Positions 13,056 through 39,235 of a DNA stretch of 64,000 bases are shown here, piece by piece (positions within the stretch are counted from its first letter, which is position 1; each line of letters begins with the position of its first letter). The notes beneath the pieces are model-generated. The model had not been told where the DNA came from. It was given only the letters and a program-made list of their open reading frames with translations, and ran no database searches. This DNA is from Rhodopseudomonas palustris HaA2 (GTDB lineage Bacteria; Pseudomonadota; Alphaproteobacteria; Rhizobiales; Xanthobacteraceae), in contig NC_007778.1 in NCBI RefSeq assembly GCF_000013365.1, positions 4,154,001-4,218,000 of the forward strand, in the 5' to 3' direction. The translations under genes and the position numbers were made by a program.

Positions 13056-13265
13056 ATGTCCGAAATGCTGACCATCCATGTTGATCAGGACAAGTGCCAG
13101 GGCCATGCGCGCTGCAAGGCGCTGGCGCCCGAATTGTTCGATCTCGACGACTACGGCAACGCTCACGAGAAAGGCGACGGCGTCGTGCCCGCCGACCTGA
13201 TCGACAAGGCGTGGCTCGCGAAGTCCAACTGCCCGGAAAACGCGATCGACATCACAGAAGACTGA
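13056..13265 (+). CDS. P450-associated [3Fe-4S] ferredoxin, HaPuxC type
   Basis: 69-aa single-cluster ferredoxin that passes electrons to the P450 encoded next. The cluster motif is C14-x2-H17-x2-C20 ... C59-P60, with His in place of the central Cys, so a [3Fe-4S] centre is expected. Glu61 follows directly; His17 and Glu61 match the residues reported to interact in the HaPuxC structure (R. palustris HaA2 RPB3630, associated with CYP194A3). It lies 63 nt before the P450 gene. A class I reductase (43 kb) is the likely electron source. Confidence 0.95.
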   Translation: MSEMLTIHVDQDKCQGHARCKALAPELFDLDDYGNAHEKGDGVVPADLIDKAWLAKSNCPENAIDITED

Positions 13266-13328: not shown

Positions 13329-14528
13329 ATGACCGAGCGAGCGCCTGTCACCGATTGGGCCAGCGACTTCGACCACACCGACCCGCGCTGGACCGAAAAC
13401 CCCTATCCGATCTGGGACGAACTGCGCGCGGCGAGCCCGGTCGTCCACACCGACCGCTTCCTGGGCGTCTATATGCCGACCACCTTCGCGGCGGTGAAGG
13501 AGATTTCCTACGACACCGACCACTTCTCGTCGCGGCGCATCATCGTCCGCAACAGCCGGCCCGAGCCGGTGCAATCGGCGCCGCCGATTACTTCAGATCC
13601 GCCGGAACACAAGCCGGCCAAGCGCCTGCTGCTGCCGCCGTTCACGCCCGATGCGGTGGCCAAGCTCGAGCCGCGGGTTCGCTCGATCTGCAATGAACTG
13701 ATCGACGATTTCATCGCGGATGGTCGCTGCGACGCCGCGAAGGCCTACAGCAAGCACATTCCGGTCAAGACGATCTGCGCGATGCTCGGCATTCCAGAGA
13801 CCGACAGCGACCGGTTCATCCAGTGGATTCACGAAATCCTCGAACTCGGTATCCATGACGACGCGATGCTGATGAAGGCGATTCAGGAAATGAGCGTGTA
13901 CTTCGCCGGCCACATCGCGAAGCGCAAGCAGCATCCGACCGACGATCTGATCAGCACGCTGATGAACGCGCGCGATGCCGACGGCCAGCCACTGTCCGAT
14001 GTCCATGTGCTCGGCTCGTTGCGCCTGCTGCTGATCGCCGGCATCGACACGACGTGGAGCGCGATCGGCGCGGCGTTGTGGCATCTGGCGACGCATCCGG
14101 AAGATCGCGTCCGGCTTGTCGCCGAGCCGGACCTGATGTCGACGGCTATCGAAGAACTTCTCCGCGCCTATGCGCCGGTCACCATGGCCCGCGAGGTGAT
14201 GAAGGAGACCACGATCGCCGGCTGCCCGGTGAAGCCCGGCAACATGGTGTTGCTGTCGTTCCCCGCCGCCAACCGCGATCCCGACGTCTTCCCCGACGCC
14301 GATCGGGTCAAGATCGACCGCCAAGAAAATCCTCACGTCGCGTTCGGCCTCGGTATTCACCGCTGCGTCGGGTCCAACTTGGCGCGAATGGAGATGACGG
14401 TTGCGATCGAGGAATGGCTGAAACGGATTCCGGAGTTTAGACTGGATTCGTCACAAAATGTGCGCTGGTCGGAAGGTACGGTTCGTGGCCCGCGCCAACT
14501 GCCGCTGCTGCTCGGCCAGCCGAGCTGA
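13329..14528 (+). CDS. Cytochrome P450, CYP194-like
   Basis: 399-aa soluble class I P450. The heme-binding loop is FGLGIHRCVG with Cys346 as thiolate ligand; the I-helix has LIAGIDTTW with the Asp240-Thr241 proton-delivery pair; EELLR at 275-279 is the K-helix ExxR. It depends on the adjacent HaPuxC-type ferredoxin. The subfamily is inferred from the published pairing of that ferredoxin with CYP194A and not from an alignment here. The following Moco-protein gene starts 20 nt after the stop, so one transcript is likely. The substrate is unknown. Confidence 0.92.
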   Translation: MTERAPVTDWASDFDHTDPRWTENPYPIWDELRAASPVVHTDRFLGVYMPTTFAAVKEISYDTDHFSSRRIIVRNSRPEPVQSAPPITSDPPEHKPAKRLLLPPFTPDAVAKLEPRVRSICNELIDDFIADGRCDAAKAYSKHIPVKTICAMLGIPETDSDRFIQWIHEILELGIHDDAMLMKAIQEMSVYFAGHIAKRKQHPTDDLISTLMNARDADGQPLSDVHVLGSLRLLLIAGIDTTWSAIGAALWHLATHPEDRVRLVAEPDLMSTAIEELLRAYAPVTMAREVMKETTIAGCPVKPGNMVLLSFPAANRDPDVFPDADRVKIDRQENPHVAFGLGIHRCVGSNLARMEMTVAIEEWLKRIPEFRLDSSQNVRWSEGTVRGPRQLPLLLGQPS

Positions 14529-20766: not shown

Positions 20767-21864
20767 CTACAAGTGATCGTAGTCCACCACCACCCGATCG
20801 GTGGTCGGTTTCGCCTGGCAGGTCAGGATGAAGCCGGCTTTCAGCTCCCACGGCTCCAGCGAGTAGTTCAGCTCCATCGGGGCCTGGCCCTCGACCAGCT
20901 TGGCGCGGCAAGTGGAGCACATTCCGCCTTTGCAGGCGAAGGGCAGGTCAACGCCGGCACGTAACGCTGCGTCGAGGATCGCCTCGCCCTCCGCCACCGG
21001 CACTTCGCGGCGCTTGCCGTCGATGATCAGCGACGCGATCGCTTTCGGCGGCGCGCCCGGCGCGACCACCGCCTTGGGTCGCGGCTTGCCGCCGAGGCCG
21101 GAGACGAAGCGCTCGACATGAATGCGCGCCTCGGCGATGCCGAGTTCGCGGCAGGCGGCCTCGACGTCGTCGCTCATCCCGATCGGGCCGCAGACGAAGA
21201 CGTGATCGACGCTCGCGGCGGGCAGCATCGCGGTCAGCAGCAGCCGCACCTTGTCGCGATCGAGCCGGCCCTGCATCACCGGCACGTCCTGCTCTTCCTG
21301 AGAGAGAACGTGGAACACCGCGAAGCGCTGCAAGTAACGATCCTTGAGCGTCTCCAGCGTGTCGCGAAACAGGATCTGATCGGTGCTGCGGTTGCCGTAG
21401 AACAGGAAGAACCGGCTCGCCGGCTCGCGCGCCAACACGGCCTTGATCAGCGACAAGATCGGCGTGATGCCGGAGCCCGCGGCGAAGCCGACATAGGTGC
21501 GGACCTCGTCCGGCGCAGGCGCGACGCCGAACCGGCCGGTCGGCGTCATCACGTCGAGCGTGTCGCCGGCTTTCAGCTCCTCGGTCGCCCACACCGAGAA
21601 CGCGCCGCCGTCGATCTTCTTCACTGCGATCCGCAATTCGCCGTCGTCGGGGCCCGAGCAGATCGAATAGGAGCGCCGCACCTCCTCGCCGTCCATCGTG
21701 GTGCGCAGCGTCAGATACTGACCCGCGGCGAACTGGTAGGCGTCGGCGAGATCCGGCGGGACGGTGAAGCTCAGCGAGATCGCGTCGCGGCCTTCGCGGC
21801 GCAGATCGCGGATCACCAGCGGATGGAAGCGCGGAATGGTGGCAGAGATGTTCATGGCGGGCAT
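20767..21864 (-). CDS. paaE: Phenylacetyl-CoA epoxidase reductase subunit
   Basis: 365-aa NADPH:acceptor reductase that feeds electrons to the PaaA diiron centre. A ferredoxin-reductase domain comes first (FAD motif RRSYSICS; nucleotide site GFAAGSGITPILSL; FVCGPIGM) and a C-terminal plant-type [2Fe-2S] domain follows (CKGGMCSTCRAKL and a later LTCQ). Last gene of paaABCDE, 22 nt after paaD. The start could be M1 or M4 (MNISATIPRF). Convergent with paaZ, 37 nt apart. Confidence 0.96.
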   Translation of the reverse strand: MPAMNISATIPRFHPLVIRDLRREGRDAISLSFTVPPDLADAYQFAAGQYLTLRTTMDGEEVRRSYSICSGPDDGELRIAVKKIDGGAFSVWATEELKAGDTLDVMTPTGRFGVAPAPDEVRTYVGFAAGSGITPILSLIKAVLAREPASRFFLFYGNRSTDQILFRDTLETLKDRYLQRFAVFHVLSQEEQDVPVMQGRLDRDKVRLLLTAMLPAASVDHVFVCGPIGMSDDVEAACRELGIAEARIHVERFVSGLGGKPRPKAVVAPGAPPKAIASLIIDGKRREVPVAEGEAILDAALRAGVDLPFACKGGMCSTCRAKLVEGQAPMELNYSLEPWELKAGFILTCQAKPTTDRVVVDYDHL

Positions 21865-21886
21865 CGGCTCAATGACATTTGACCTA

Positions 21887-22390
21887 TCAGTGACATTTGA
21901 AGTAATCGAACGGCTCGCGGCACACCTTGCAGCGCCACAGCGCCTTGCAGGAGGTCGAGCCGAATTCGGACAGTTGCTCGGTGTCGATCGAACCGCATTG
22001 CGGACAGGCTATTTCAAGGGCGCCGAACAACGCCCGGCGGCCGGTCGCGGCCTGCGGCGGCGCGATGCCATAGTCCTTCAGCTTGGCGCGGCCCTCGGCG
22101 CTCATCCAGTCGGTGGTCCAGGCCGGCGCCAGCACGGTTCGAACGCTCGCGTCGCCGATGCCGGCGCGCGCCAGCGCGGTCTCGATCTCCAGCGTGATCA
22201 TGTTCATCGCCGGGCAGCCCGAATAGGTCGGCGTGATCGTGACCTCGACGCGGCCGTCGTTGACGCTGATGTCGCGCAGCACGCCGAGATCGGCGATGGT
22301 GAGGACGGGAATCTCCGGATCGACCACGGTCGCGGCCGCATCCCAGGCGCGGGCGCGCAGCTCGGAATCGCTGATGGCGCGCGTCACCAT
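21887..22390 (-). CDS. paaD: Phenylacetyl-CoA epoxidase assembly protein PaaD
   Basis: 167-aa protein (E. coli PaaD 165 aa). An N-terminal DUF59/MIP18-type domain (VVDPEIPVLTIADLGVLRDI, SGCPAMNMI) is followed by a C-terminal zinc-ribbon-like part with two CxxC pairs (CPQCGS and CKVC). It is needed for epoxidase activity, probably in iron-sulfur or diiron assembly. The ATG at 22390 overlaps the end of paaC by 7 nt, which fixes the start; the frame stays open upstream. Confidence 0.94.
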   Translation of the reverse strand: MVTRAISDSELRARAWDAAATVVDPEIPVLTIADLGVLRDISVNDGRVEVTITPTYSGCPAMNMITLEIETALARAGIGDASVRTVLAPAWTTDWMSAEGRAKLKDYGIAPPQAATGRRALFGALEIACPQCGSIDTEQLSEFGSTSCKALWRCKVCREPFDYFKCH

Positions 22391-23160
22391 GTCTGGCCCG
22401 GATAGGTCCGCTGCATGTATTGCAGCTCGGAGAGCAGATGGCCGAGATGCTCGCTGTGCCGGCCGCTGCGGCCGCCGCGCTGCACCCACGTGCCGCTCGG
22501 CAGCGTCAAGGTCGCTTCGCCCAGCACGGCGGCGATCGTTGCCTGCCAGGGCTCGCGCAGGCTCGCGGGATCGATCACGACGCCCGCCTCGATCAGGCTG
22601 CGCTCGCCATCGTCGGCCTCGAACAGCTCACCCGTGAACGGCCACAGCGCGTCGATCGCGTCCTGCGCGCGGCGATGGCTTTCGTCGGTGCCGTCGCCGA
22701 GCCGGATCATCCATTCCGACGTGTGGCGGAGGTGATAGGCGCTTTCCTTTTCCGACTTCGCCGCGATCGCGGCGAGCGTCGGGTCGGCCGAGCGCATCAT
22801 CGCCCGCCAATACGGATCGGCGTAGGCGGAATACAACAATTGCCGCGCGATGGTGCGGGCGAAGTCGCCGTTGGGCTGCTCGACGAGCAAGAGGTTCTGG
22901 TAATCGCGCTCCTCGCGCAGATAAGCGAGCTGATCCTCGCCGCGCCCCCTGCCCTCGACGCGCCCTGCATAGCTGTACAGTTCGCGCGCCTGCCCGATCA
23001 GATCCAGCGCGATGTTCGACAGCGCCATGTCCTCTTCGAGCATCGGCGCATGGCCGCACCATTCCGACAGCCGATGCCCGAGGATCAGCGCGTCGTCGGC
23101 GCGGCGCAGGGCGTAGGTGAACAGCGGGGTGTCGGTGATTTCGATCGAGGCGGCGGGCAT
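22384..23160 (-). CDS. paaC: Phenylacetyl-CoA epoxidase structural subunit PaaC
   Basis: 258-aa ferritin-like partner of PaaA in the epoxidase core. It keeps the fold (EEDMALSNIALDLIGQARELY, ESAYHLRHTSEWM) but is the non-catalytic subunit in characterised complexes. The C-terminus MQRTYPG is typical. Between it and paaB is a 178-bp gap holding a hairpin repeat, unusual inside this normally tight operon. Confidence 0.95.
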   Translation of the reverse strand: MPAASIEITDTPLFTYALRRADDALILGHRLSEWCGHAPMLEEDMALSNIALDLIGQARELYSYAGRVEGRGRGEDQLAYLREERDYQNLLLVEQPNGDFARTIARQLLYSAYADPYWRAMMRSADPTLAAIAAKSEKESAYHLRHTSEWMIRLGDGTDESHRRAQDAIDALWPFTGELFEADDGERSLIEAGVVIDPASLREPWQATIAAVLGEATLTLPSGTWVQRGGRSGRHSEHLGHLLSELQYMQRTYPGQTW

Positions 23161-23204
23161 CGGCTGTTACTCGGGTTCGAATGAAGCGTTCGCCACACAC
23201 GCGG

Positions 23205-23309
23205 CGTCATCCTGAGGTGGGAGCGCAGCGAGCCTCGAAGGATGCGGCGACGGGTACCGGCTGCGCATCCTTCGAAGCCGCCGCTGCGCGGCGGCAGCTC
23301 AGGATGACG
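23205..23309. repeat. Dispersed inverted repeat, family 3, inside the paa operon
   Basis: Arms CGTCATCCTGAGG ... GAAGGATGC and GCATCCTTCGA ... CTCAGGATGACG pair over most of their length. It is the well-known Rhodopseudomonas/Bradyrhizobium intergenic hairpin with CTGAGG-type ends. It sits in the paaB-paaC gap and should be transcribed as a strong stem-loop. Confidence 0.85.
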
Positions 23310-23338
23310 TCGCGTTATGTGCCGGCCACGGCGGCGAA

Positions 23339-23626
23339 CTACATATGCCCGACTTCATCGGGCACCTCGTAGAACGTCGGGTGACGATAGATCTTGCTCT
23401 CGGCCGGCTCGAACATCATGCCCGCCTCGGCGGGATCGCTCGCCGTGATCGCGCTCGACGGCACCACCCAGATCGACAGCCCCTCGCCGCGGCGGGTGTA
23501 GACGTCGCGGGCCGCCTGCAGTGCCAGCGTGGCGTCGGCGGCGTGCAGCGAGCCGACGTGCTTGTGCGCGAGGCCATTGCGGCTGCGGATGAAGACTTCC
23601 CACAGCGCCGTATTCGGCGTGCTCAT
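23339..23626 (-). CDS. paaB: Phenylacetyl-CoA epoxidase subunit PaaB
   Basis: 95-aa small subunit that bridges PaaAC heterodimers. The N-terminus STPNTALWEVFIRSRNGLAH and the end GKM-like EVGHM are typical. The ATG at 23626 is chosen because GGGAGG lies 6 nt upstream; another in-frame ATG at 23650 has no such site. It follows paaA by 35 nt. Confidence 0.95.
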   Translation of the reverse strand: MSTPNTALWEVFIRSRNGLAHKHVGSLHAADATLALQAARDVYTRRGEGLSIWVVPSSAITASDPAEAGMMFEPAESKIYRHPTFYEVPDEVGHM

Positions 23627-23661
23627 CGAATGCCTCCCGAAGATGGACAATCCCGCGGCGT

Positions 23662-24645
23662 CTAGGCCGCGATCTTCTTCTTGCGCTTTTCGGCGAAGGC
23701 CATCGCGGCTTCGCGAACCCAGGCGCCGTCGTCATGCGCCTTGCGCCGCGCCGCCAGCCGGTCGCGGTTGCACGGGCCGTTGCCGGCCAGCACCTGCTTG
23801 AATTCGTCCCAGTCGATCGTGCCGTAGTCCCAGTGCCCGGTGGACTCGTTCCTGGTCAACGCCGGATCGGGAATCGTGAGCCCGAGATAGTGCGCCTGCG
23901 GCACGGTCGCATCGACGAATTTCTGGCGCAATTCGTCGTTGGAGAAGCGCTTGATCTTCCATCTGGTCGAGGTGTCGCTGTGCTGGCTGGCCTGATCCGG
24001 CGGGCCGAACATCATCAGGCATGGCCACCACCAGCGGTCGAGCGCATCCTGCGCCATCGCCTTCTGCTCGGCCGAACCGCGGCACAGCGTCAGCATGATC
24101 TCGTAGCCCTGGCGCTGGTGGAACGACTCCTCCTTGCAGACGCGGATCATCGCCCGCGCATAGGGGCCGTAGGAGCAGCGGCACAGCGGAATCTGGTTCA
24201 TGATCGCGGCGCCGTCGACCAGCCAGCCGATCGCGCCGATATCCGCCCAGGTCAGCGTCGGGTAGTTGAAGATCGAGGAGTACTTCGCCTTGCCGCTCAG
24301 CATCTGATCGACCAGCTCTTCGCGCGACGAGCCGAGCGTCTCTGCGGCGGCGTAGAGATACAGCCCGTGGCCGCATTCGTCCTGCACCTTGGCGAGCAAG
24401 GCGGCCTTGCGGCGCAGCGTCGGCGCGCGGGTGATCCAATTGCCTTCCGGCAACATGCCGACGATCTCGGAATGGGCGTGCTGCGAGATCTGCCGCGTCA
24501 GCGTCTTGCGATACGCCGCCGGCATCCAGTCGTTGGGCTCGATCCGCTCTTCGGCATCGATCCGCGCCTGGAACAGCGCGGCGCGGCCGGCGTCCTCGAG
24601 GTTGCGATCCTCGGCCTCGGTGGTGTTGAGCGCCTGTGTGTACAT
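23662..24645 (-). CDS. paaA: Phenylacetyl-CoA 1,2-epoxidase catalytic subunit PaaA
   Basis: 327-aa ferritin-like diiron oxygenase subunit that makes the 1,2-epoxide of phenylacetyl-CoA. Diiron ligand motifs are DECGHGLY and [10 protein letters not shown]. First gene of paaABCDE. The ATG at 24645 gives the family N-terminus [10 protein letters not shown]; upstream codons in frame overlap the operator-like site and are not family sequence. It diverges from the TetR gene with one operator-like site between them. Confidence 0.96.
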
Positions 24646-25638: not shown

Positions 25639-25665
25639 AAAAAGAAAGGCCCGCTTGCGCGGGCC
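25639..25665 (-). terminator. Rho-independent terminator of the phasin gene
   Basis: On the minus strand a 7-bp stem GGCCCGC / GCGGGCC with loop GCAA is followed by TTTCTTTTT, 46 nt after the phasin stop codon. Confidence 0.85.
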
Positions 25666-25710
25666 CAGAATTCAGTGATCAGCAAGACCTGTGATCGATC
25701 GATGTGTCGA

Positions 25711-26202
25711 TCAGAGCGGCTTGCTGAAGCTCTTGCTCAGGTTGTCCTGGGCCGACTTGGCGCTGTCGGCGACCAGCTTCCCGAGATATTCGGTGGTCGA
25801 CTTGGCGCGCGACACCAGCACTTCGCCGTGCGAGCGAACCAGATCCGACTGGATCTGCACCGCTTCGTTCAACGACTTCGCCGAAGCCAGCTTGTCGATT
25901 CCGGAGAAGAACGCCTGGGTGTCGGCATAGATCGCCTGCTGGATGTTGCGGCTGATCTTGGCGGCCTCGCTGACCGAATGGCTGACAGCCTCTTCGATCG
26001 CGGAGGTGACCTTCTCCGAACCCGCCTGGAAGTCGGCGGCCTTCTCCTTGGCGGTGCCGGCCGCACGCTTGACGAAGTCGCGGGTGGCTTCCGGAACTTC
26101 CAGATTCTGGAAGTTCTTGAATGCGTCGCCAACCGGCGCAAATGCCTGTTTGACGTTGTCGAACGCGGCCTGATGCGTCTCGGAATAGGTTTCGTTGGTC
26201 AT
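25711..26202 (-). CDS. Phasin family protein (PHA granule-associated)
   Basis: 163-aa largely helical phasin_2-type protein (FDNVKQAFAPVGDAFKNFQN, ATRDFVKRAAGTAKEKAADF, SLNEAVQIQSDLVRSH). Phasins coat polyhydroxyalkanoate granules and control their size. No Cys, no signal peptide. A GGAG site lies 7 nt before ATG. Upstream are two TGC-ATT-GCA dyads like those bound by the PHA repressor PhaR, and a clear terminator follows, so it is a single-gene unit. It neighbours a PhaE-like gene. Confidence 0.92.
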   Translation of the reverse strand: MTNETYSETHQAAFDNVKQAFAPVGDAFKNFQNLEVPEATRDFVKRAAGTAKEKAADFQAGSEKVTSAIEEAVSHSVSEAAKISRNIQQAIYADTQAFFSGIDKLASAKSLNEAVQIQSDLVRSHGEVLVSRAKSTTEYLGKLVADSAKSAQDNLSKSFSKPL

Positions 26203-26288
26203 CGGGTGTCTCCATCCTCGGTGATTGAGCTATGGTCTCGCCCCGTCCGAATGCGGCCCGGGACACCCTTCATATGGCACAGTTTATG

Positions 26289-26317
26289 TTGCATTGCAAT
26301 ATAATATTGCATTGCAG
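26289..26317. promoter_or_regulatory. Two PhaR-like dyads upstream of the phasin gene
   Basis: TTGCATTGCAA (26289-26299) and TTGCATTGCAG (26307-26317) are spaced 18 bp start to start, on the same face of the helix within an AT-rich stretch, about 90 bp upstream of the phasin ATG. PhaR repressors are reported to bind TGC-N3-GCA dyads before phasin genes. Assignment is by pattern. Confidence 0.65.
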
Positions 26318-26416
26318 CATTTCAGCTTGCACCTAAGTCGTTGATCCGATTAATGAATATTCTCTAATCCGCGTGCGCGAAACAAATTTCGCAATTTTTG
26401 GATGTAGCTCGGCCGC

Positions 26417-26758
26417 CTATTTCGCGCGCGTCGGCTTTGGTGCCGTGGTGTCGCCGGACTCGTTGCGCCCTTGATCGACCGCTGCCTTGAGCTGATCGAG
26501 CCGGGCTTCGATTGCCGAGAGCCGCGCGCCGAACTCGTCCATCTGCGCGCGCGTCGGCAGGTTGAGACCGGCCAGGTATTTTTCAACCATCTCGCCGAAC
26601 TGTTTCTGCGCCTCCGCCGTGGCGCCGCCGACCTGGCCGACCGCTTTGGCGATTTCCGGGGTCGCCATCGCCTGACTGGCGAGCGCCGTGAAGCCCTTGC
26701 TCATCTCGCCGAACATCGCTTGCCAGGCCGCGGCCGGGTCGTTGTCCTTGTCGGCCAC
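26417..26758 (-). CDS. PhaE/phasin-like small coiled-coil protein
   Basis: 113 aa from a GTG start that has GAGGAGAAGG directly upstream; the frame stays open upstream inside the P450 gene. The N-terminal part is helical (AWQAMFGEMSKGFTALASQA). The segment YLAGLNLPTRAQMDEFGARL followed by a heptad coiled coil resembles the C-terminal NLPTR-coiled-coil region of the class III PHA synthase subunit PhaE and of granule proteins. It is the last gene of the DUF6489-hydrolase-CYP102 operon, 19 nt after the P450 stop. Function inferred only; it could be a granule tether. Confidence 0.7.
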   Translation of the reverse strand: MADKDNDPAAAWQAMFGEMSKGFTALASQAMATPEIAKAVGQVGGATAEAQKQFGEMVEKYLAGLNLPTRAQMDEFGARLSAIEARLDQLKAAVDQGRNESGDTTAPKPTRAK

Positions 26759-26777
26759 TACCTTCTCCTCGTTGGAC

Positions 26778-29700
26778 TTACACGCTCGCCCAAACATCGA
26801 GCACGTAGCGATCGCGCGCGCCGAGATCCGCAATCCATGCCGCGGCGGCCGTCGCGTCGGCGCCGCTGCGCTCGCGATGGATCGCACACAGCGCGGCCTT
26901 GACATCCGGCTCCATCCGGCCGCCGTCGCCGCAGACATAAACGATCGCGCCCTGCTCGATCAATGCGAACACCCGATCCTTTTGCGCGGCGATCAGATGT
27001 TGCACATAGGTCTTGGGCCCGTCGCCGCGCGAGAACGCGGCGTGCAATTCGACGATTCCGTCGGCCGCGAAGCCCTGCAATTCGTCGGCATAGAGATAGT
27101 CCTGCGCCGGATGGCGGCAACCGAAGAACAGCAGCGCTGGGCCGAGCGTTGCGCCGCCGACCTTGCGCGCGGAACGCTCCTGTAGAAAGCCGCGGAACGG
27201 CGCCACCCCGGTGCCCGGCCCGATCATGATCAACGGCACGCGATCGTCGTCCGGCAGACGGAAGCAGGCCTTGGTCGCACGTACCGTGGCCTGAACGGTA
27301 TCGCCGCTGCCGCGGCCGGCGAGCCAGCTCGAGCACGCGCCGCGATAGATGCCACGGCCGGACAGCGCCGGTCCCTCGACCACCGCGACGGTGACCGAGG
27401 CCCGCGCCGGATCTCGCGCCGGTGACGACGAGATCGAGTAGTAACGCGGCTGCAGCGGCGTCAGCATTTCAAGATAGGCCGCGAACGGCAACTCGCAAGC
27501 GGGATGTTCCTGCAAGAGATCGAACACCGACCGGCGCTTACCCAGTACCTCCGCGCGATAGGCATCGTCGGCCGCGCCGTCGCCGCCGGCGAGCGCCTGC
27601 AGCTTCGGTCGCGTCTGCGGACAGCGCGTGTGCGCGGCCAGCGCCACGATCTGCTTGCGGGTGGCCACCTGCTGCAGTTCGACATGGTCGCCGAGCAGGC
27701 CGCCGATCGACACGGCTTCACCCACCGGCAATTGCGCGCGGCGCCCGGGCGCCGCCGACAATCTGATCTGGTCGTCGGGCGCAAAGCCGAAGCGCTGCGC
27801 GACGGCGGCGACCAGCGCCGGATCGTTGCGCGGGATCACGCTGAGATGATCCCCGACGCGGTAGCTCATGCCCTGCGGCAATGCGATCTCGATGTGCCGG
27901 GTCGAGCGGCCGGAGGCTGCGCGATCCTGCAGCTCGCGGTTCTCCAGCACGCGCATCGCCACTGCGACGCCAGTGGCGGCCAGCGGCTGCGACGCCGCCG
28001 GCGCGAGGGGCTCGATTCCATACAGCGGCGTATCGTCGGCACCGCGATCGAACGCAGCGTCGATGCCGAACTCCTTCACCGCCAGCGGGCCGAGCGTGGC
28101 GAACCAGGCCTCGAACTGGCCTTCGAGATCGTCACGGGCGTCGCCCTCGCCGCGCACGAAGATGTTGCGGCCGCCATGCGCGGCGAGGCGCTCGTCGATC
28201 AGCCGCGGGATCGCCTGATAGGTCGCGGTCCAGTCGCGATTGCCGCAGCCGAACACGGCATAGCGCAGCTTGGCAAAGGCATCGGGCGGCAAATCGCCCG
28301 ACAGCCAGCGCACGAACTGCGTGGCGTTGTCCGGCGGCGCGCCGTTGTAGGAGGCGGCGAAGATCAGTACGCCCCCCTCTTCCGGCAACTGACCGACATA
28401 CTGATCGAGCGCGCCGAGTCGCGTCGCGAAGCCGTTCAGGTCGGCGAGATCGGCGACGCGGTGCGCCAGCTCCTCGGCGGTGCCGAGATTGGAGCCGTAC
28501 AGCACCAGCAGCGGCGTGTTGTGGCCCGGCCGCGCGCGCGGCGCGGCCGGGGCCGGGGCCACAGAGTGCGATACTCCCGACGCGATCCGCGTGGCTCGAT
28601 CCTTGTCGCTGCGGGGCCGCACCTTGATCTTGAAGCCCTCCGGCTTGATCGTCAGCGTTTCCTTCAGCACCATGCGATAGCGCGTGTGATCGATCAGCTT
28701 GAAGCGTTGCAGGATCATGCCGAGCGCCAGCGCCGCCTCGTGCATCGCAAAGCCGCGGCCGATGCAAGCGCGCTGGCCGTTGCCGAACGGTTTCCACGCA
28801 TTGGCCGGGCGCTTGGATTCCGCCTCGCGCGAAAAATTCTCCGGGTCGAACGCATCCGGATTCGGACCCCAGATACTCGGGTCGCGATGCAGCGCCAGCA
28901 CCAGCACCGTGGTGAAGGTGCCGCGTTTCAGATGATATTGGCCGCCGATGGTCTCGTCCTGGATCGGCGCCACGCCGTAGGCCGGCGCCGGCGGCCATAG
29001 CCGCAGCGTCTCCTTGAGAATCTGGGTGATATAGCCGAGCTGATTGACCTGCTGATAGCTCGGCTCGACCGACGTGTCGGCGCCGAGCACGCGGTCGACC
29101 TCGTCATAGGCCTTCTGCAAAACCTCGGGATGCTTCAACAGCGCATAGATCGCGCAGGACAGCAGCCCGCTGGTGGTCTCGTGGCCGGCGATCAGGAAGG
29201 TGTTGATCTGATAGCGGATGTTGACGTCGTCGAGCGGCTCGCCGGTGACCTTATCGACGCCGGTCATCATCGCGCCGAGCATGTCCATCTTGTCGGCGAC
29301 GGCGGCCGCCTTGCGTCGCTCGGCGATGATCTCGTCGACCATCGCATTCATGAAGGCGACGTCTTCGGCCAGCGTGTCGCGCCGCTTCTTCATCCAGAGA
29401 TTTTCCAGCGGCAGGCCGCGGGTCATCATGATGGTCTCGAGCGAGCGCACCAGCGATTCCACGAAGGGGTGGTAGTCGCGCCGATAGAACGAATTGAAGC
29501 GATAGTCGAAGCCGCACAGGCCGATGGTGTCGAGCGTCAGCGCGGTCATGTCGTGAACGACGTCGATCTCGTCGTCGGCGTTGAGACGCTCCCATTTTTT
29601 GACGAGCTGCTCGGCTATATCGACCATACTCGGATGATACGACTGCATGGCACGGCCGCCGAACGGCGTCAGCAGGATGTTGTGTGCCTTGCTCCAGTTC

Positions 29701-29996
29701 GGCTCGCTGGTGTCGGCCGTGAACAGCCCGTCGCCGCCGACCGTACGGACCCGACGCAGCGCGCCGCGCACCGCCTTGTCGAAACGCTTCTCGTCGCTGA
29801 TCTCGTCGACCAGATCGTAGCCCGACACGATCACGATCGGCGCGCCCATCATGTCGAGCCAGAAGATCGGCCCGAGTTCCTCGGCGAGACGCACCAGATG
29901 CTGCACCGGCGCCTTGGTGTCGATCGACAGCATGTTGCCGACCACCGGCTGCTTCGGTGGATGCGGAATCGGCGCGAGCTTGTTGGACGAGGACAT
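26778..29996 (-). CDS. Self-sufficient cytochrome P450-reductase fusion, CYP102 family
   Basis: 1072-aa cytoplasmic fusion, like P450 BM3 (1049 aa). The heme domain spans about 1-460: I-helix AGHETT at 270-275, ExxR in KETLR, heme loop FGNGQRACIG with Cys411. An FMN flavodoxin domain follows from about 490 (LYGSNLGTAEEL), then FAD/NADPH domains (RYYSISSSPA, GPGTGVAPFRGF, VCGDGGRM) and a terminal Trp-containing tail. Family members hydroxylate fatty acids with NADPH. By hand alignment the carboxylate anchors Arg47 and Tyr51 of BM3 are Ala and Ile here. ATG 29996 has AGAGG 8 nt upstream; an ATG at 30023 overlapping the hydrolase stop is the alternative. Confidence 0.95.
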   Translation of the reverse strand: MSSSNKLAPIPHPPKQPVVGNMLSIDTKAPVQHLVRLAEELGPIFWLDMMGAPIVIVSGYDLVDEISDEKRFDKAVRGALRRVRTVGGDGLFTADTSEPNWSKAHNILLTPFGGRAMQSYHPSMVDIAEQLVKKWERLNADDEIDVVHDMTALTLDTIGLCGFDYRFNSFYRRDYHPFVESLVRSLETIMMTRGLPLENLWMKKRRDTLAEDVAFMNAMVDEIIAERRKAAAVADKMDMLGAMMTGVDKVTGEPLDDVNIRYQINTFLIAGHETTSGLLSCAIYALLKHPEVLQKAYDEVDRVLGADTSVEPSYQQVNQLGYITQILKETLRLWPPAPAYGVAPIQDETIGGQYHLKRGTFTTVLVLALHRDPSIWGPNPDAFDPENFSREAESKRPANAWKPFGNGQRACIGRGFAMHEAALALGMILQRFKLIDHTRYRMVLKETLTIKPEGFKIKVRPRSDKDRATRIASGVSHSVAPAPAAPRARPGHNTPLLVLYGSNLGTAEELAHRVADLADLNGFATRLGALDQYVGQLPEEGGVLIFAASYNGAPPDNATQFVRWLSGDLPPDAFAKLRYAVFGCGNRDWTATYQAIPRLIDERLAAHGGRNIFVRGEGDARDDLEGQFEAWFATLGPLAVKEFGIDAAFDRGADDTPLYGIEPLAPAASQPLAATGVAVAMRVLENRELQDRAASGRSTRHIEIALPQGMSYRVGDHLSVIPRNDPALVAAVAQRFGFAPDDQIRLSAAPGRRAQLPVGEAVSIGGLLGDHVELQQVATRKQIVALAAHTRCPQTRPKLQALAGGDGAADDAYRAEVLGKRRSVFDLLQEHPACELPFAAYLEMLTPLQPRYYSISSSPARDPARASVTVAVVEGPALSGRGIYRGACSSWLAGRGSGDTVQATVRATKACFRLPDDDRVPLIMIGPGTGVAPFRGFLQERSARKVGGATLGPALLFFGCRHPAQDYLYADELQGFAADGIVELHAAFSRGDGPKTYVQHLIAAQKDRVFALIEQGAIVYVCGDGGRMEPDVKAALCAIHRERSGADATAAAAWIADLGARDRYVLDVWASV

Positions 29997-30019
29997 CGCA
30001 GAAGCCTCTTCTGAACCGG

Positions 30020-30817
30020 TCATGTGCCTCGGGCCGGCGGTGCCGCATAGGCAAGCGCGAACGGCCCTGAGCGATCGAACGGTGCGAATGCGCCCTCCGG
30101 CTGCGCCAGCCGATCGGCGATCGCCCACAGCACCGCGGGGTTGACGGTGAGCCCGATATGGCTCGCGAGCAGAACCTCGATGTTCTCGGCGGTCGGCGAC
30201 GGCCGCAGCCGCGAGGTGCGCCAGTTCACGATGCCGTCGGTGCGCGAATAGATCGACGTCGCCGGCACCGGCATGTCGCTGGTGAGAGCCTGTAGATCGT
30301 CGGGCCTGATCTCGTCGAGATCCTCGCCCGACAGCTTCTCGTAGACCCGCCGTGCATTGGTGGCGGTGATGTCGCCGGAAAACGGACTGCCGAGCGTGAC
30401 GATGCCGCGGATCATCTGTGGCGCATGCAGCGCGAGGTCGCGCGCATAGACGCCGCCGAGGCTCCACCCGACCACGCTGACCTTGCGGCCGGATGCCTCG
30501 TGGATCGTAGTCAGGCGCCGGCGCAGCCGGTCGCGCATCCGGTAGACGCCGCCGAAATTGCGGCCGAGCTCCCAGGCGAACGGCTGATAGCCGAGCGCGC
30601 GCAGATAGCGCCGCAGCGGCGCTGTCGACAGATCGCTGGCGAGCAGCCCCGGCAGCACCAGCACCGGATGGCCGTCGCCTTTCGGCGCCTGCAGCAGCAG
30701 CGGCGACAACAGGATGCTGGCGTTGAATTCCAGCAGGCTGCGCGCCTCCGCCAGCAGCAGCGCGAGGCTCGGCGGACGCAGACGATGGTGAGGGGTCGCG
30801 CGGTCGACGGCGGCCAT
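30020..30817 (-). CDS. Lipase-like alpha/beta hydrolase
   Basis: 265-aa alpha/beta hydrolase with Ser119 in VVGWSLGG, Asp194 in SRTDGIVNW and His220 in LASHIGL as the probable triad. The opening PVLVLPGLLASDLSTAPLRRYL resembles triacylglycerol lipase/esterase families. No signal peptide, so it acts in the cytoplasm. Its TGA overlaps an ATG of the CYP102 frame, and it follows the DUF6489-type gene by 21 nt, so the genes are co-translated. It could release acyl chains or ester products that the P450 oxidises (inference). Confidence 0.85.
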   Translation of the reverse strand: MAAVDRATPHHRLRPPSLALLLAEARSLLEFNASILLSPLLLQAPKGDGHPVLVLPGLLASDLSTAPLRRYLRALGYQPFAWELGRNFGGVYRMRDRLRRRLTTIHEASGRKVSVVGWSLGGVYARDLALHAPQMIRGIVTLGSPFSGDITATNARRVYEKLSGEDLDEIRPDDLQALTSDMPVPATSIYSRTDGIVNWRTSRLRPSPTAENIEVLLASHIGLTVNPAVLWAIADRLAQPEGAFAPFDRSGPFALAYAAPPARGT

Positions 30818-30838
30818 CCTGCCTCCTGTCGTGGCGGT

Positions 30839-31081
30839 TTACTTCTTGTTTCCGCCCAGGCCCGCCATGGTCACGAACATATCCTGGAAGCGCTCGGCGA
30901 TCTTCGGATCGAAGGTGAACCAGCTCTGCATCAACGCCTCCGGCGACACCTTGTCGATGTTGGACAGCATCTGCTGCTGCAGCCTGTCCATCACCGCCGT
31001 CTGCATCGGCTGCACGTTGGGCAGGCCGAAGAATGCGCGCGCTTCCTCGGGGGTGCAATCGATCTCGACGTTGACTTTCAT
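30839..31081 (-). CDS. DUF6489-type small protein
   Basis: 80 aa; first gene of the CYP102 operon. Opens MKVNVEIDCTPEEARAFFGL, with a helical middle (MQTAVMDRLQQQML) and an amphipathic MQSWFTFDPKIAERFQDMF stretch. I recognise it as the DUF6489-type family from memory; no function is established. The ATG at 31081 has CGGAGC 5 nt upstream; a longer in-frame start at 31135 lacks this. Confidence 0.72.
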   Translation of the reverse strand: MKVNVEIDCTPEEARAFFGLPNVQPMQTAVMDRLQQQMLSNIDKVSPEALMQSWFTFDPKIAERFQDMFVTMAGLGGNKK

Positions 31082-31255
31082 GGCCGCTCCGGATTCCTGC
31101 AGTGGCGCGTCGTGTCGATGCGAACCGGTCTCCAATTCACATCACAACGCGAAGGGACGTCTCAGCGACGCCCGGCGGAGCATCCTGAACACGGCCGCCA
31201 GTATCGCCGCGAGACGCAGTGCGATGCAAGCGATCTGAGGTGTGGCACGTGCGCC

Positions 31256-38014: not shown

Positions 38015-39235
38015 ATGGAAATGCCCTCACGCGAACTGGCGGCGGAGTTCGAACTCGAACGGCTGACGCCGGAGTTCTATGACAATCCCTACCCCACCTA
38101 TCGCGCCCTGCAGACGCATCAGCCGGTCAAGCGGCTGCGCAATGGCGGGTACATCCTGACGCGCTATGACGATCTGGTGACGGTCTACAAGAACACCACG
38201 CTGTTCAGCTCCGACAAGAAGCGCGAATTCGCGCCGAAATACGGCGACTCGCTGCTGTTCGAGCATCACACTACCAGCCTGGTGTTCAACGACCCGCCGG
38301 CGCATACGCGAGTGCGGCGGCTGATCACGGGCGCGCTGTCGCCGCGCGCGATCGCCGGCATGCAGCCGGATCTGATCGCGCTGGTCGACCGCCTGCTCGA
38401 TGCGATGGCGGCCAAAGCCGGCGTCGATCTGATCGAGGATTTCGCCGCCGCGATCCCGATCGAGGTGATCGGCAATCTGCTCGGCGTGCCGCACGACGAG
38501 CGCGGCCCGCTCCGCGACTGGTCGCTGGCGATTCTCGGCGCACTCGAGCCGGTGATCGGGCCGGAGACGTTTTCGCGCGGCAATGAGGCTGTCCGCGACT
38601 TCCTCGCCTATCTCGAAATCCTGATCACGCGCCGTCGCGCCGAGCCCGGCGATCCGGAGCACGATGTTCTGACCCGGCTGATCCAGGGCGACGACGGCAC
38701 CGGCGAGAAGCTCTCCGCCAAGGAGCTGCTGCACAATTGCATCTTCCTGCTCAACGCCGGACATGAAACCACCACCAACCTGATCGGCAACGGGCTCGTG
38801 GCGCTCGCAGACAATCCTGCGGAAAAACAGCGGCTGATCGGCCAGCCCGGCCTCGCCCGCACCGCGGTCGAAGAGATCCTGCGCTATGAGAGCTCGAACC
38901 AGCTCGGCAACCGCATCACCACCACCGAGGTCGAGATCGGAGGCGTAACGATGCAGGCCAACACCTCGCTGACGCTGTGCATCGGCGCTGCCAACCGCGA
39001 TCCGGCGCAGTTTCCCGATCCCGACCGGTTCGACGTCGGACGAACGCCGAACCGGCACCTCGCTTTTGCCACGGGGCCACATCAATGCGCCGGCATGGCG
39101 CTGGCGCGGCTCGAAGGCGTGATCGCGCTGACGCGATTCCTGGCGCGCTTCCCGAACTACACGCTCGACGGCACGCCGTCGCGCGGCGGGCGGGTGCGGT
39201 TTCGCGGCTATCTGCGCGTGCCATGCCGCCTGTAG
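38015..39235 (+). CDS. Cytochrome P450 (class I, soluble)
   Basis: 406-aa P450. Heme loop FATGPHQCAG with Cys358; I-helix NAGHETTTN (248-254) with Glu251-Thr252; EEILR at 286-290. It has no fused reductase and no ferredoxin gene beside it, so it needs partners from elsewhere, possibly the HaPuxC-type ferredoxin or the PuR-type reductase at 42.6 kb. The start has GGGAATGAC just upstream. It could be a CYP203-like enzyme, but I cannot fix the family. Confidence 0.9.
   Translation: MEMPSRELAAEFELERLTPEFYDNPYPTYRALQTHQPVKRLRNGGYILTRYDDLVTVYKNTTLFSSDKKREFAPKYGDSLLFEHHTTSLVFNDPPAHTRVRRLITGALSPRAIAGMQPDLIALVDRLLDAMAAKAGVDLIEDFAAAIPIEVIGNLLGVPHDERGPLRDWSLAILGALEPVIGPETFSRGNEAVRDFLAYLEILITRRRAEPGDPEHDVLTRLIQGDDGTGEKLSAKELLHNCIFLLNAGHETTTNLIGNGLVALADNPAEKQRLIGQPGLARTAVEEILRYESSNQLGNRITTTEVEIGGVTMQANTSLTLCIGAANRDPAQFPDPDRFDVGRTPNRHLAFATGPHQCAGMALARLEGVIALTRFLARFPNYTLDGTPSRGGRVRFRGYLRVPCRL

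Follow-up and report, generated by a model that had tools for sequence, protein, structure and literature searches.

The 64,000-nucleotide stretch of Rhodopseudomonas palustris HaA2 analyzed here (contig NC_007778.1 of assembly GCF_000013365.1, positions 4,154,001 to 4,218,000; hereafter the window) contains an operon in which a fused cytochrome P450 is encoded together with small proteins of the type found in polyhydroxyalkanoate (PHA) systems. A DUF6489 protein, a hydrolase, the P450 fusion and a PhaE-like protein are encoded head to tail on the minus strand, and a phasin gene lies 214 bp further on. The features are, in window coordinates:

30839..31081, minus strand: DUF6489 protein of 80 residues, the first gene of the operon (PF20099, 4.9e-14); it adjoins the hydrolase or the PhaE-like gene in relatives
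30020..30817, minus strand: alpha/beta-hydrolase of 265 residues with a GWSLG nucleophile elbow (generic hydrolase family matches)
26778..29996, minus strand: CYP102-type P450-reductase fusion of 1072 residues, or 1081 from the ATG at 30023 (Pfam domains; PDB relatives)
26417..26758, minus strand: small PhaE-like protein of 113 residues with a GTG start (PF09712 above cut-off)
25711..26202, minus strand: phasin (Phasin_2), probable orthologue of B. diazoefficiens PhaP5 (Blr2887) (TIGR01985 above cut-off)
26287..26319, no strand assigned: two PhaR-like dyads (TGCAATGCA/TGCATTGCA) overlapping the predicted -10 element of the phasin gene (word scan, promoter prediction)
31217..31228, minus strand: weak PhaR-like site TGCATCGCACTG, about 147 bp upstream of the DUF6489 gene (10 of 12 positions of the published consensus)
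25647..25666, minus strand: terminator-like hairpin 3' of the phasin gene (5 such sites in the region against 2.9 expected by chance)

Codon-usage gene calling of the window recovers the identical gene set. A preliminary description of this DNA had given the gaps of 21 and 19 nt within the operon correctly. The overlap that it reported between the hydrolase and P450 genes exists if the P450 starts at the ATG at 30023, which overlaps the hydrolase stop; with the ATG at 29996 there is instead a gap of about 23 nt. We favor the start at 29996 because alignments of the P450 to named relatives mostly begin at query residues 6–10.

The P450 was rightly recognized as a CYP102 fusion. It carries four Pfam domains in order (p450, 1.4e-86; Flavodoxin_1; FAD_binding_1; NAD_binding_1), and thus combines a P450 with an FMN/FAD/NADPH reductase in one chain, and it has full-length relatives in the PDB. 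Membership in CYP102 is assigned above about 40% identity to the heme domain of CYP102A1, and the window protein is 50% identical to P450 BM3 in the first 206 columns of the alignment (the remaining columns are uncounted). The fusion of heme domain and diflavin reductase is shared with P450 BM3 and other fatty-acid-hydroxylating CYP102 enzymes (chains 8hkj; 9wuc, SoP450; 2nnb, BM3), and the heme cysteine motif, AGHETTS and the Phe of GDGLF are kept in window-type P450s. Unlike BM3, the window P450 has Ala and Ile at the positions aligned with Arg47 and Tyr51, which we take, by numbering and role, to be the carboxylate-binding residues of BM3. Some other solved CYP102 relatives likewise have no counterparts of these two residues, so their absence alone does not exclude free fatty acids as substrate; the replacement leaves room for esters or thioesters.

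The hydrolase matches generic alpha/beta-hydrolase families, the best two just below their Pfam cut-offs. Its earlier label of lipase-like was generous, given that no lipase family scores above cut-off. The phasin assignment held up, with 110.7 bits against a cut-off of 99.7 for TIGR01985 and 53.8 bits, also above cut-off, for PF09361, which identifies a Phasin_2 protein; its orthology with PhaP5 is read from gene order and locus tags only. The profile search proposed earlier for the small protein matches PF09712 (PhaE) with 27.8 bits against a cut-off of 25.7, at the end of the profile only. Matches to TIGR02132 (PhaR_Bmeg, 3.5e-5) and TIGR01834 (PhaE, 1.1e-5) are both far under the cut-offs and, with 113 residues and 25.1 bits against 154.95 for TIGR01834, the protein is not a full-length PhaE. 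A profile of the PhaE-like family gave weak matches in the PDB, chiefly to designed helical proteins and coiled coils, and none to a PHA protein. AlphaFold models of the PhaE-like and DUF6489 proteins (mean predicted local distance difference test scores of 58 and 57) were too poor for structure searches.

We surveyed 149 genomes of the window's family. The P450 is found in 35 of them (threshold E up to 1e-100), DUF6489 in 47 and the PhaE-like protein in 31, 29 of these being strong matches and two, near 3e-4, being dropped from later counts. Gene neighborhoods were mapped for 40 loci from family genomes. A second set of 80 named loci comprises the best of 411 from a contig scan with an alignment of nine P450s; 68 of the 80 are longer than 20 kb, and most are from Bradyrhizobium, with others from Rhodopseudomonas, Tardiphaga and Afipia. 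Genes in the loci were called with a codon-usage script and labeled by BLAST to proteins of the window, of locus L048 and a few others. Both sets show that the genes are conserved beyond this strain, in family genomes and in several genera, which the preliminary description had asked a neighborhood search to check.

In its full form the cluster encodes, in order, DUF6489, the hydrolase, WS/DGAT, an epoxide-hydrolase-like protein, the P450, the PhaE-like protein, a class III-type PhaC, GNAT, the phasin and DUF445. Among the 68 long named loci the P450 is present in 68, DUF6489 and the epoxide-hydrolase-like protein in 67 each, WS/DGAT in 66, the hydrolase in 65, the phasin in 60, a hydrolase on the opposite strand in 58, the PhaE-like protein in 57, PhaC and GNAT in 55 each, and DUF445 in 54. 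The PHA synthase and WS/DGAT of relatives make the link to storage polymers stronger than the window alone shows. The WS/DGAT of L048 scores above its NCBIfam cut-off, and its PhaC has TIGR01836 as best match, with 318 bits below the cut-off of 365. We labeled the epoxide-hydrolase-like protein from the name published for Blr2881 of strain USDA110 and from the motifs HGWP and GHDWG, which presumably mark such enzymes.

Catalytic motifs are intact across the loci. These counts, like the promoter counts below, pool the 40-locus and 80-locus sets, and some genomes occur in both (for example, L046/L082, L072/L094 and L049/L096). The P450s retain FGNGQRACIG (102/102), AGHETTS (102/102) and GDGLF (101/102), GWSLG is present in 89/89 genes labeled hydrolase, GxCxGG in 78/79 PhaC and HHxxxDG in 90/90 WS/DGAT. 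The 79 distinct PhaE-like relatives in the loci mostly lie directly 5' of a class III-type PhaC. They are small (104–161 residues among 34 aligned) and match only the last part of PhaE; the one from L048 scores 24.8 bits against PF09712, just below cut-off. A KPPRTKRPPS-like C-terminal tail is kept where the genome has PhaC and is shortened in Rhodopseudomonas genomes that lack it, which hints that the tail contacts PhaC and would make it a candidate PhaC-binding tail. Two genomes without PhaC (L044 and L045) retain part of it.

The window operon is a reduced form of this cluster. It has no phaC in its locus, and its PhaE-like gene no adjoining class III PhaC, both of which are found in 55/68 named loci. 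The genome has no class III-type PhaC, only two distant homologues (26–30% identity, open frames of about 610 residues), and no WS/DGAT in a search of eight genomes that was positive in three (G138, G005 and G066). No epoxide-hydrolase-like gene occurs in the window locus, to which that search was confined. Within the genus, the metagenome-assembled genome (MAG) Rhodopseudomonas Cfx3-05 (L046, L082) has the full cluster between the same flanks as in the window (a DAO oxidoreductase at one end, TetR and PaaA at the opposite end), with an opposite-strand hydrolase after the P450 and a second hydrolase after DUF445. R. pseudopalustris keeps the epoxide-hydrolase-like gene, which the window and the R. 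palustris MAG L081 do not have. Further reduction is seen in G108 and G028, without the P450, in G141 and G067, which also have no hydrolase, so that DUF6489 is directly beside the PhaE-like gene, and in G089, without both P450 and PhaE-like gene. DUF6489, the PhaE-like protein and the phasin are the genes that persist longest.

A tree of concatenated flanking and retained genes from 16 loci, with uneven coverage (PaaA and RND in eight loci each) and one node at 0.56, groups the full clusters outside the clade of Rhodopseudomonas. Supposing an ancestral full form, the P450 would have been lost at least four times. The remaining genes are under purifying selection. The ratio of nonsynonymous to synonymous substitution rates (dN/dS) of the five window genes is 0.12–0.21 in comparisons with L081 and L072, and that of the retained genes is 0.06–0.31 when L039 and L041 are included, with 0.09–0.28 for the controls PaaA and DAO. 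Values against Cfx3-05 are higher for the hydrolase (0.38) and the PhaE-like protein (0.41).

PhaC and the P450 co-occur in the family. Class III-type PhaC is present in 21/149 genomes and all 21 also have the P450 and the PhaE-like protein; the corresponding Fisher value of 1e-16 ignores shared descent and is indicative only. Thirteen of the 68 named loci have no PhaC in the stretch, and ten of those genomes were searched. Seven, all Bradyrhizobium, carry one elsewhere (84–86% identity), and the R. palustris MAG (L081), R. pseudopalustris (L094) and Tardiphaga (L091) gave only distant matches of 26–29% in genome searches. Across the order (297 genomes), class III-type PhaC (E up to 1e-60) is found in eight genomes, all of one genus (g25).

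Two other families of the order (f20 and f24) have a P450 of 59–60% identity. In f20, a phasin-like gene, DUF445 and WS/DGAT lie within about 10 kb of the 60% identical P450 in 3/5 genomes. In the one locus scanned (L161), the BLAST-labeled phasin is below the TIGR01985 cut-off, and a second phasin and the WS/DGAT are above theirs. A class II-like PhaC is about 8.6 kb from the P450 in 2/5 of these genomes (TIGR01839, 708 and 695 bits against a cut-off of 855) and is followed, in the one checked (L196), by a PhaZ above cut-off. Phasin-like genes and WS/DGAT also occur beside divergent P450s in G027 (57–58%) and G030 (44–52%).

Based on these patterns, our tentative reading, with a probability of about 0.45, is that the window operon is a granule-associated acyl-oxidizing module reduced from a conserved storage-lipid/PHA locus. 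The preliminary description had placed the P450 at a lipid or PHA granule surface; the comparative data bear out a storage-granule or storage-lipid context, and localization and mechanism remain proposals. We infer the cellular place, substrates and reaction order as follows. The hydrolase would release or transfer acyl chains from stored lipid or polyester, and the P450, using O2 and NADPH, would oxidize these close to the methyl end, with DUF6489, the PhaE-like protein and the phasin keeping the enzymes on the surface of the granule. Among relatives, the oxidized chains could be re-esterified by WS/DGAT or PhaC, and in the full form the small PhaE-like subunit and PhaC may together make up a two-part class III-type PHA synthase. 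In the window the oxidized chains are probably turned over, because WS/DGAT and PhaC are missing there.

Several findings weigh against a granule-associated module of this kind. According to its main rival, a less likely but possible alternative, two separate modules are neighbors, one for neutral lipids and fatty acids (DUF6489, hydrolase, WS/DGAT, epoxide hydrolase, P450) and one for PHA (PhaE-like protein, PhaC, GNAT, phasin), and the loss of intervening genes in Rhodopseudomonas accidentally joined the P450 to the PhaE-like gene. In Bradyrhizobium the opposite-strand hydrolase stands between the P450 half and the PhaE-PhaC half, and among the loci only those of Rhodopseudomonas combine the P450 and PhaE-like genes in a tight operon. 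Of the 35 family genomes with the P450, 14 have no class III-type PhaC; six of these (G004, G013, G018, G022, G060 and G116) have only a P450 of about 40–50% identity, the other eight a close one. Tardiphaga loci keep the P450 half without PhaE and PhaC, and a search of one entire Tardiphaga genome found no PhaC of this type. For four of the seven genomes with PhaC away from the P450 the new site was mapped (L171–L174); there the PHA half, comprising the opposite-strand hydrolase, PhaE-like protein, PhaC, GNAT, phasin and DUF445, has moved together and left the P450 behind. Two Bradyrhizobium genomes have a second PhaC-GNAT copy away from the P450, with a PhaE-like protein in one (L176) and none called in the other (L175).

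Other alphaproteobacterial families likewise have PhaE-like protein and PhaC without a P450 in 15–20 kb (L190–L192). A class-wide profile search for the PhaE-like protein matched 10/385 genomes at 1e-5, two of them in the window's own family and five weakly. Two genomes of one other genus have the PhaE-like protein, PhaC and GNAT with no P450 within 15 kb, and in a third a PhaC preceded by an uncalled PhaE-like match has none within 20 kb, the P450 search covering the stretch in each case. We accordingly rejected the idea that PhaC strictly depends on the P450. Because it also stands apart from the P450, we regard the PhaE-like/PhaC/GNAT triad as a unit of its own that was joined to the P450 module in the window's family. 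Against two independent modules are the presence of the P450 in all 21 family genomes with PhaC, a count inflated by shared descent, the occurrence of a different PhaC class near the P450 in another family, and the persistence of DUF6489, a gene of the lipid half, beside the PhaE-like gene where everything between them is missing (G141, G067).

It is unlikely, in our view, that full clusters encode a pathway to a novel storage polyester or estolide, a bacterial counterpart of plant cutin. The P450 and the epoxide hydrolase would make mid-chain or subterminal hydroxy fatty acids, by hydroxylation or by epoxidation and hydration, which WS/DGAT and the miniature PhaE-PhaC synthase would polymerize at a phasin-coated granule; Rhodopseudomonas would have lost the synthase and kept the oxidation half as a granule-bound acyl-oxidizing remnant. 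Full clusters do encode a candidate for every catalytic step, and in f20 the P450 has FadD, WS/DGAT and a class II-like PhaC of the medium-chain type nearby. However, FadD (acyl-CoA ligase) is found in just 3/68 named loci, and PHA synthases are known to use 3- to 6-hydroxyacyl-CoA and not known to act on long chains with subterminal hydroxyl groups. We consider it improbable that the P450 serves an unrelated duty, such as detoxifying or signaling fatty acids or membrane lipid repair, with PHA genes as mere neighbors. CYP102-like genes do occur in other contexts: in the stretches fetched, no PHA or WS/DGAT genes lie near the seven distant relatives (36–50% identity; L179 on one side only), the P450s of both f24 genomes (59%) or those of the other two of the five f20 genomes. 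Against this explanation, the P450 lies repeatedly, in two families, near phasin-like genes and WS/DGAT, and such genes also accompany the divergent P450s of G027 and G030.

The promoter of the phasin gene carries PhaR-like dyads, as the preliminary description had noted. The words TGCATTGCA/TGCAATGCA occur just twice in the window, both times in the 214-bp phasin promoter, where TGCNNNGCA is seen twice against 0.12 expected from its frequency in the window. The two dyads have zero and one mismatch to the published PhaR consensus of B. diazoefficiens, TGCRNYGCASMA (PMC6201568). A whole-window scan for the consensus with one mismatch allowed found 28 sites against 29.3 expected, the level of chance, so we counted only the dyads of the phasin promoter. 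The PhaR core is present upstream of 92/92 phasin genes in loci with enough upstream sequence (some genomes twice). In a phaR mutant of B. diazoefficiens, PhaP5 is 129-fold up; its promoter is bound by PhaR, and PhaP5 is the only tag of the blr2881–blr2887 region in the main text of that report (PMC6201568). PhaR-like 12-mers, some of them exact copies of the published consensus, lie 62–64 bp before DUF6489 in 27 of 109 upstream stretches (for example, L109; most are Bradyrhizobium). PhaR control of the P450 operon is only a lead, since the main-text tables of PhaR-linked genes of USDA110 do not contain the operon genes (PMC6201568) and related promoters are alike by descent.

Further points against the granule interpretation come from published work on Bradyrhizobium. 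PhaP5 is strongly repressed by PhaR, yet the P450 operon genes do not accompany it in those tables. In the excerpts of PMC10888616 that concern these genes, blr2885 is poorly expressed, or absent microaerobically, and polyhydroxybutyrate (PHB) granules held no PhaC paralogue and only PhaP1-3 as phasins, PhaP5 not being found. Blr2885, named PhaC4 here and phbC1 in other papers, is described as a truncated synthase and, in the portion of PMC5996035 that deals with it, was found in a membrane-enriched fraction on mannitol. By its locus tags, the USDA110 region fits the order of the full cluster, with blr2881 as epoxide hydrolase, blr2885 as PHB synthase and blr2887 as phasin (PhaP5), but the published accounts, in the parts relevant here, treat the genes singly, and Blr2885 is called truncated whereas the relatives in our loci look like complete class III-type synthases. 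Among the genes given as expressed in senescing soybean nodules in the corresponding part of PMC6321122 are blr2881 and blr2882, the latter being, as inferred from gene order, the putative P450 of USDA110.

The cluster is a new arrangement of known parts, and we found no earlier description of it in the open-access literature, nor a paper connecting a CYP102 enzyme to a cluster for PHA synthase or phasin. To our knowledge, no BM3-type gene has been reported from a PHA locus, and the natural role of CYP102 enzymes is poorly known. As in class III (PhaE-PhaC) and class IV (PhaR-PhaC) synthases, relatives of the window encode a PhaE/PhaR-like protein directly before a PhaC of about 360 residues with GxCxGG, Asp and His motifs; they differ in the short small protein and in a PhaC that, in L048, is under the TIGR01836 cut-off, and the window genome has no such PhaC. 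The f20 neighborhood resembles medium-chain-length PHA loci (class II PhaC, PhaZ, phasins) in its class II-like PhaC (2/5 genomes) and, in the one checked, PhaZ. It differs in that this PhaC is under the TIGR01839 cut-off, and classical loci of this kind have, as far as we know, no P450 or WS/DGAT.

DUF6489 also occurs elsewhere. A second type (45–57% identical) is found in other genera and, in L052, L055, L058 and L064, lies near a large protein of about 1070–1184 residues that resembles, by eye, a molybdenum hydroxylase, so DUF6489 is not tied to PHA genes everywhere. No paper naming it was found in the open-access literature. In most Bradyrhizobium loci the P450 is followed by a gene that looks SpeE-like by eye and has no Pfam match (L048, 12694–13305; 53/68 named loci). 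In the window, phenylacetate degradation genes (20767–24645, minus strand; PaaA by Pfam, its neighbors by eye) adjoin the phasin and its TetR gene, and a PaaA-labeled gene is present in 49/68 named loci. Two more P450 genes lie on the plus strand (13329–14528 and 38015–39235), the first just after a ferredoxin-like gene named by eye (13056–13265). In the whole genome the P450 profile matches 11 places, some of which are parts of one gene.

The cluster is common in Bradyrhizobium and is found in several related genera, which makes the natural role of CYP102 directly testable. It suggests that the storage granules of soybean symbionts may hold or process oxidized fatty acids. Comparison of its relatives further suggests that PhaC4 (Blr2885), called truncated in print, may be a complete synthase of class III type that has a small partner, and perhaps a substrate, of its own.

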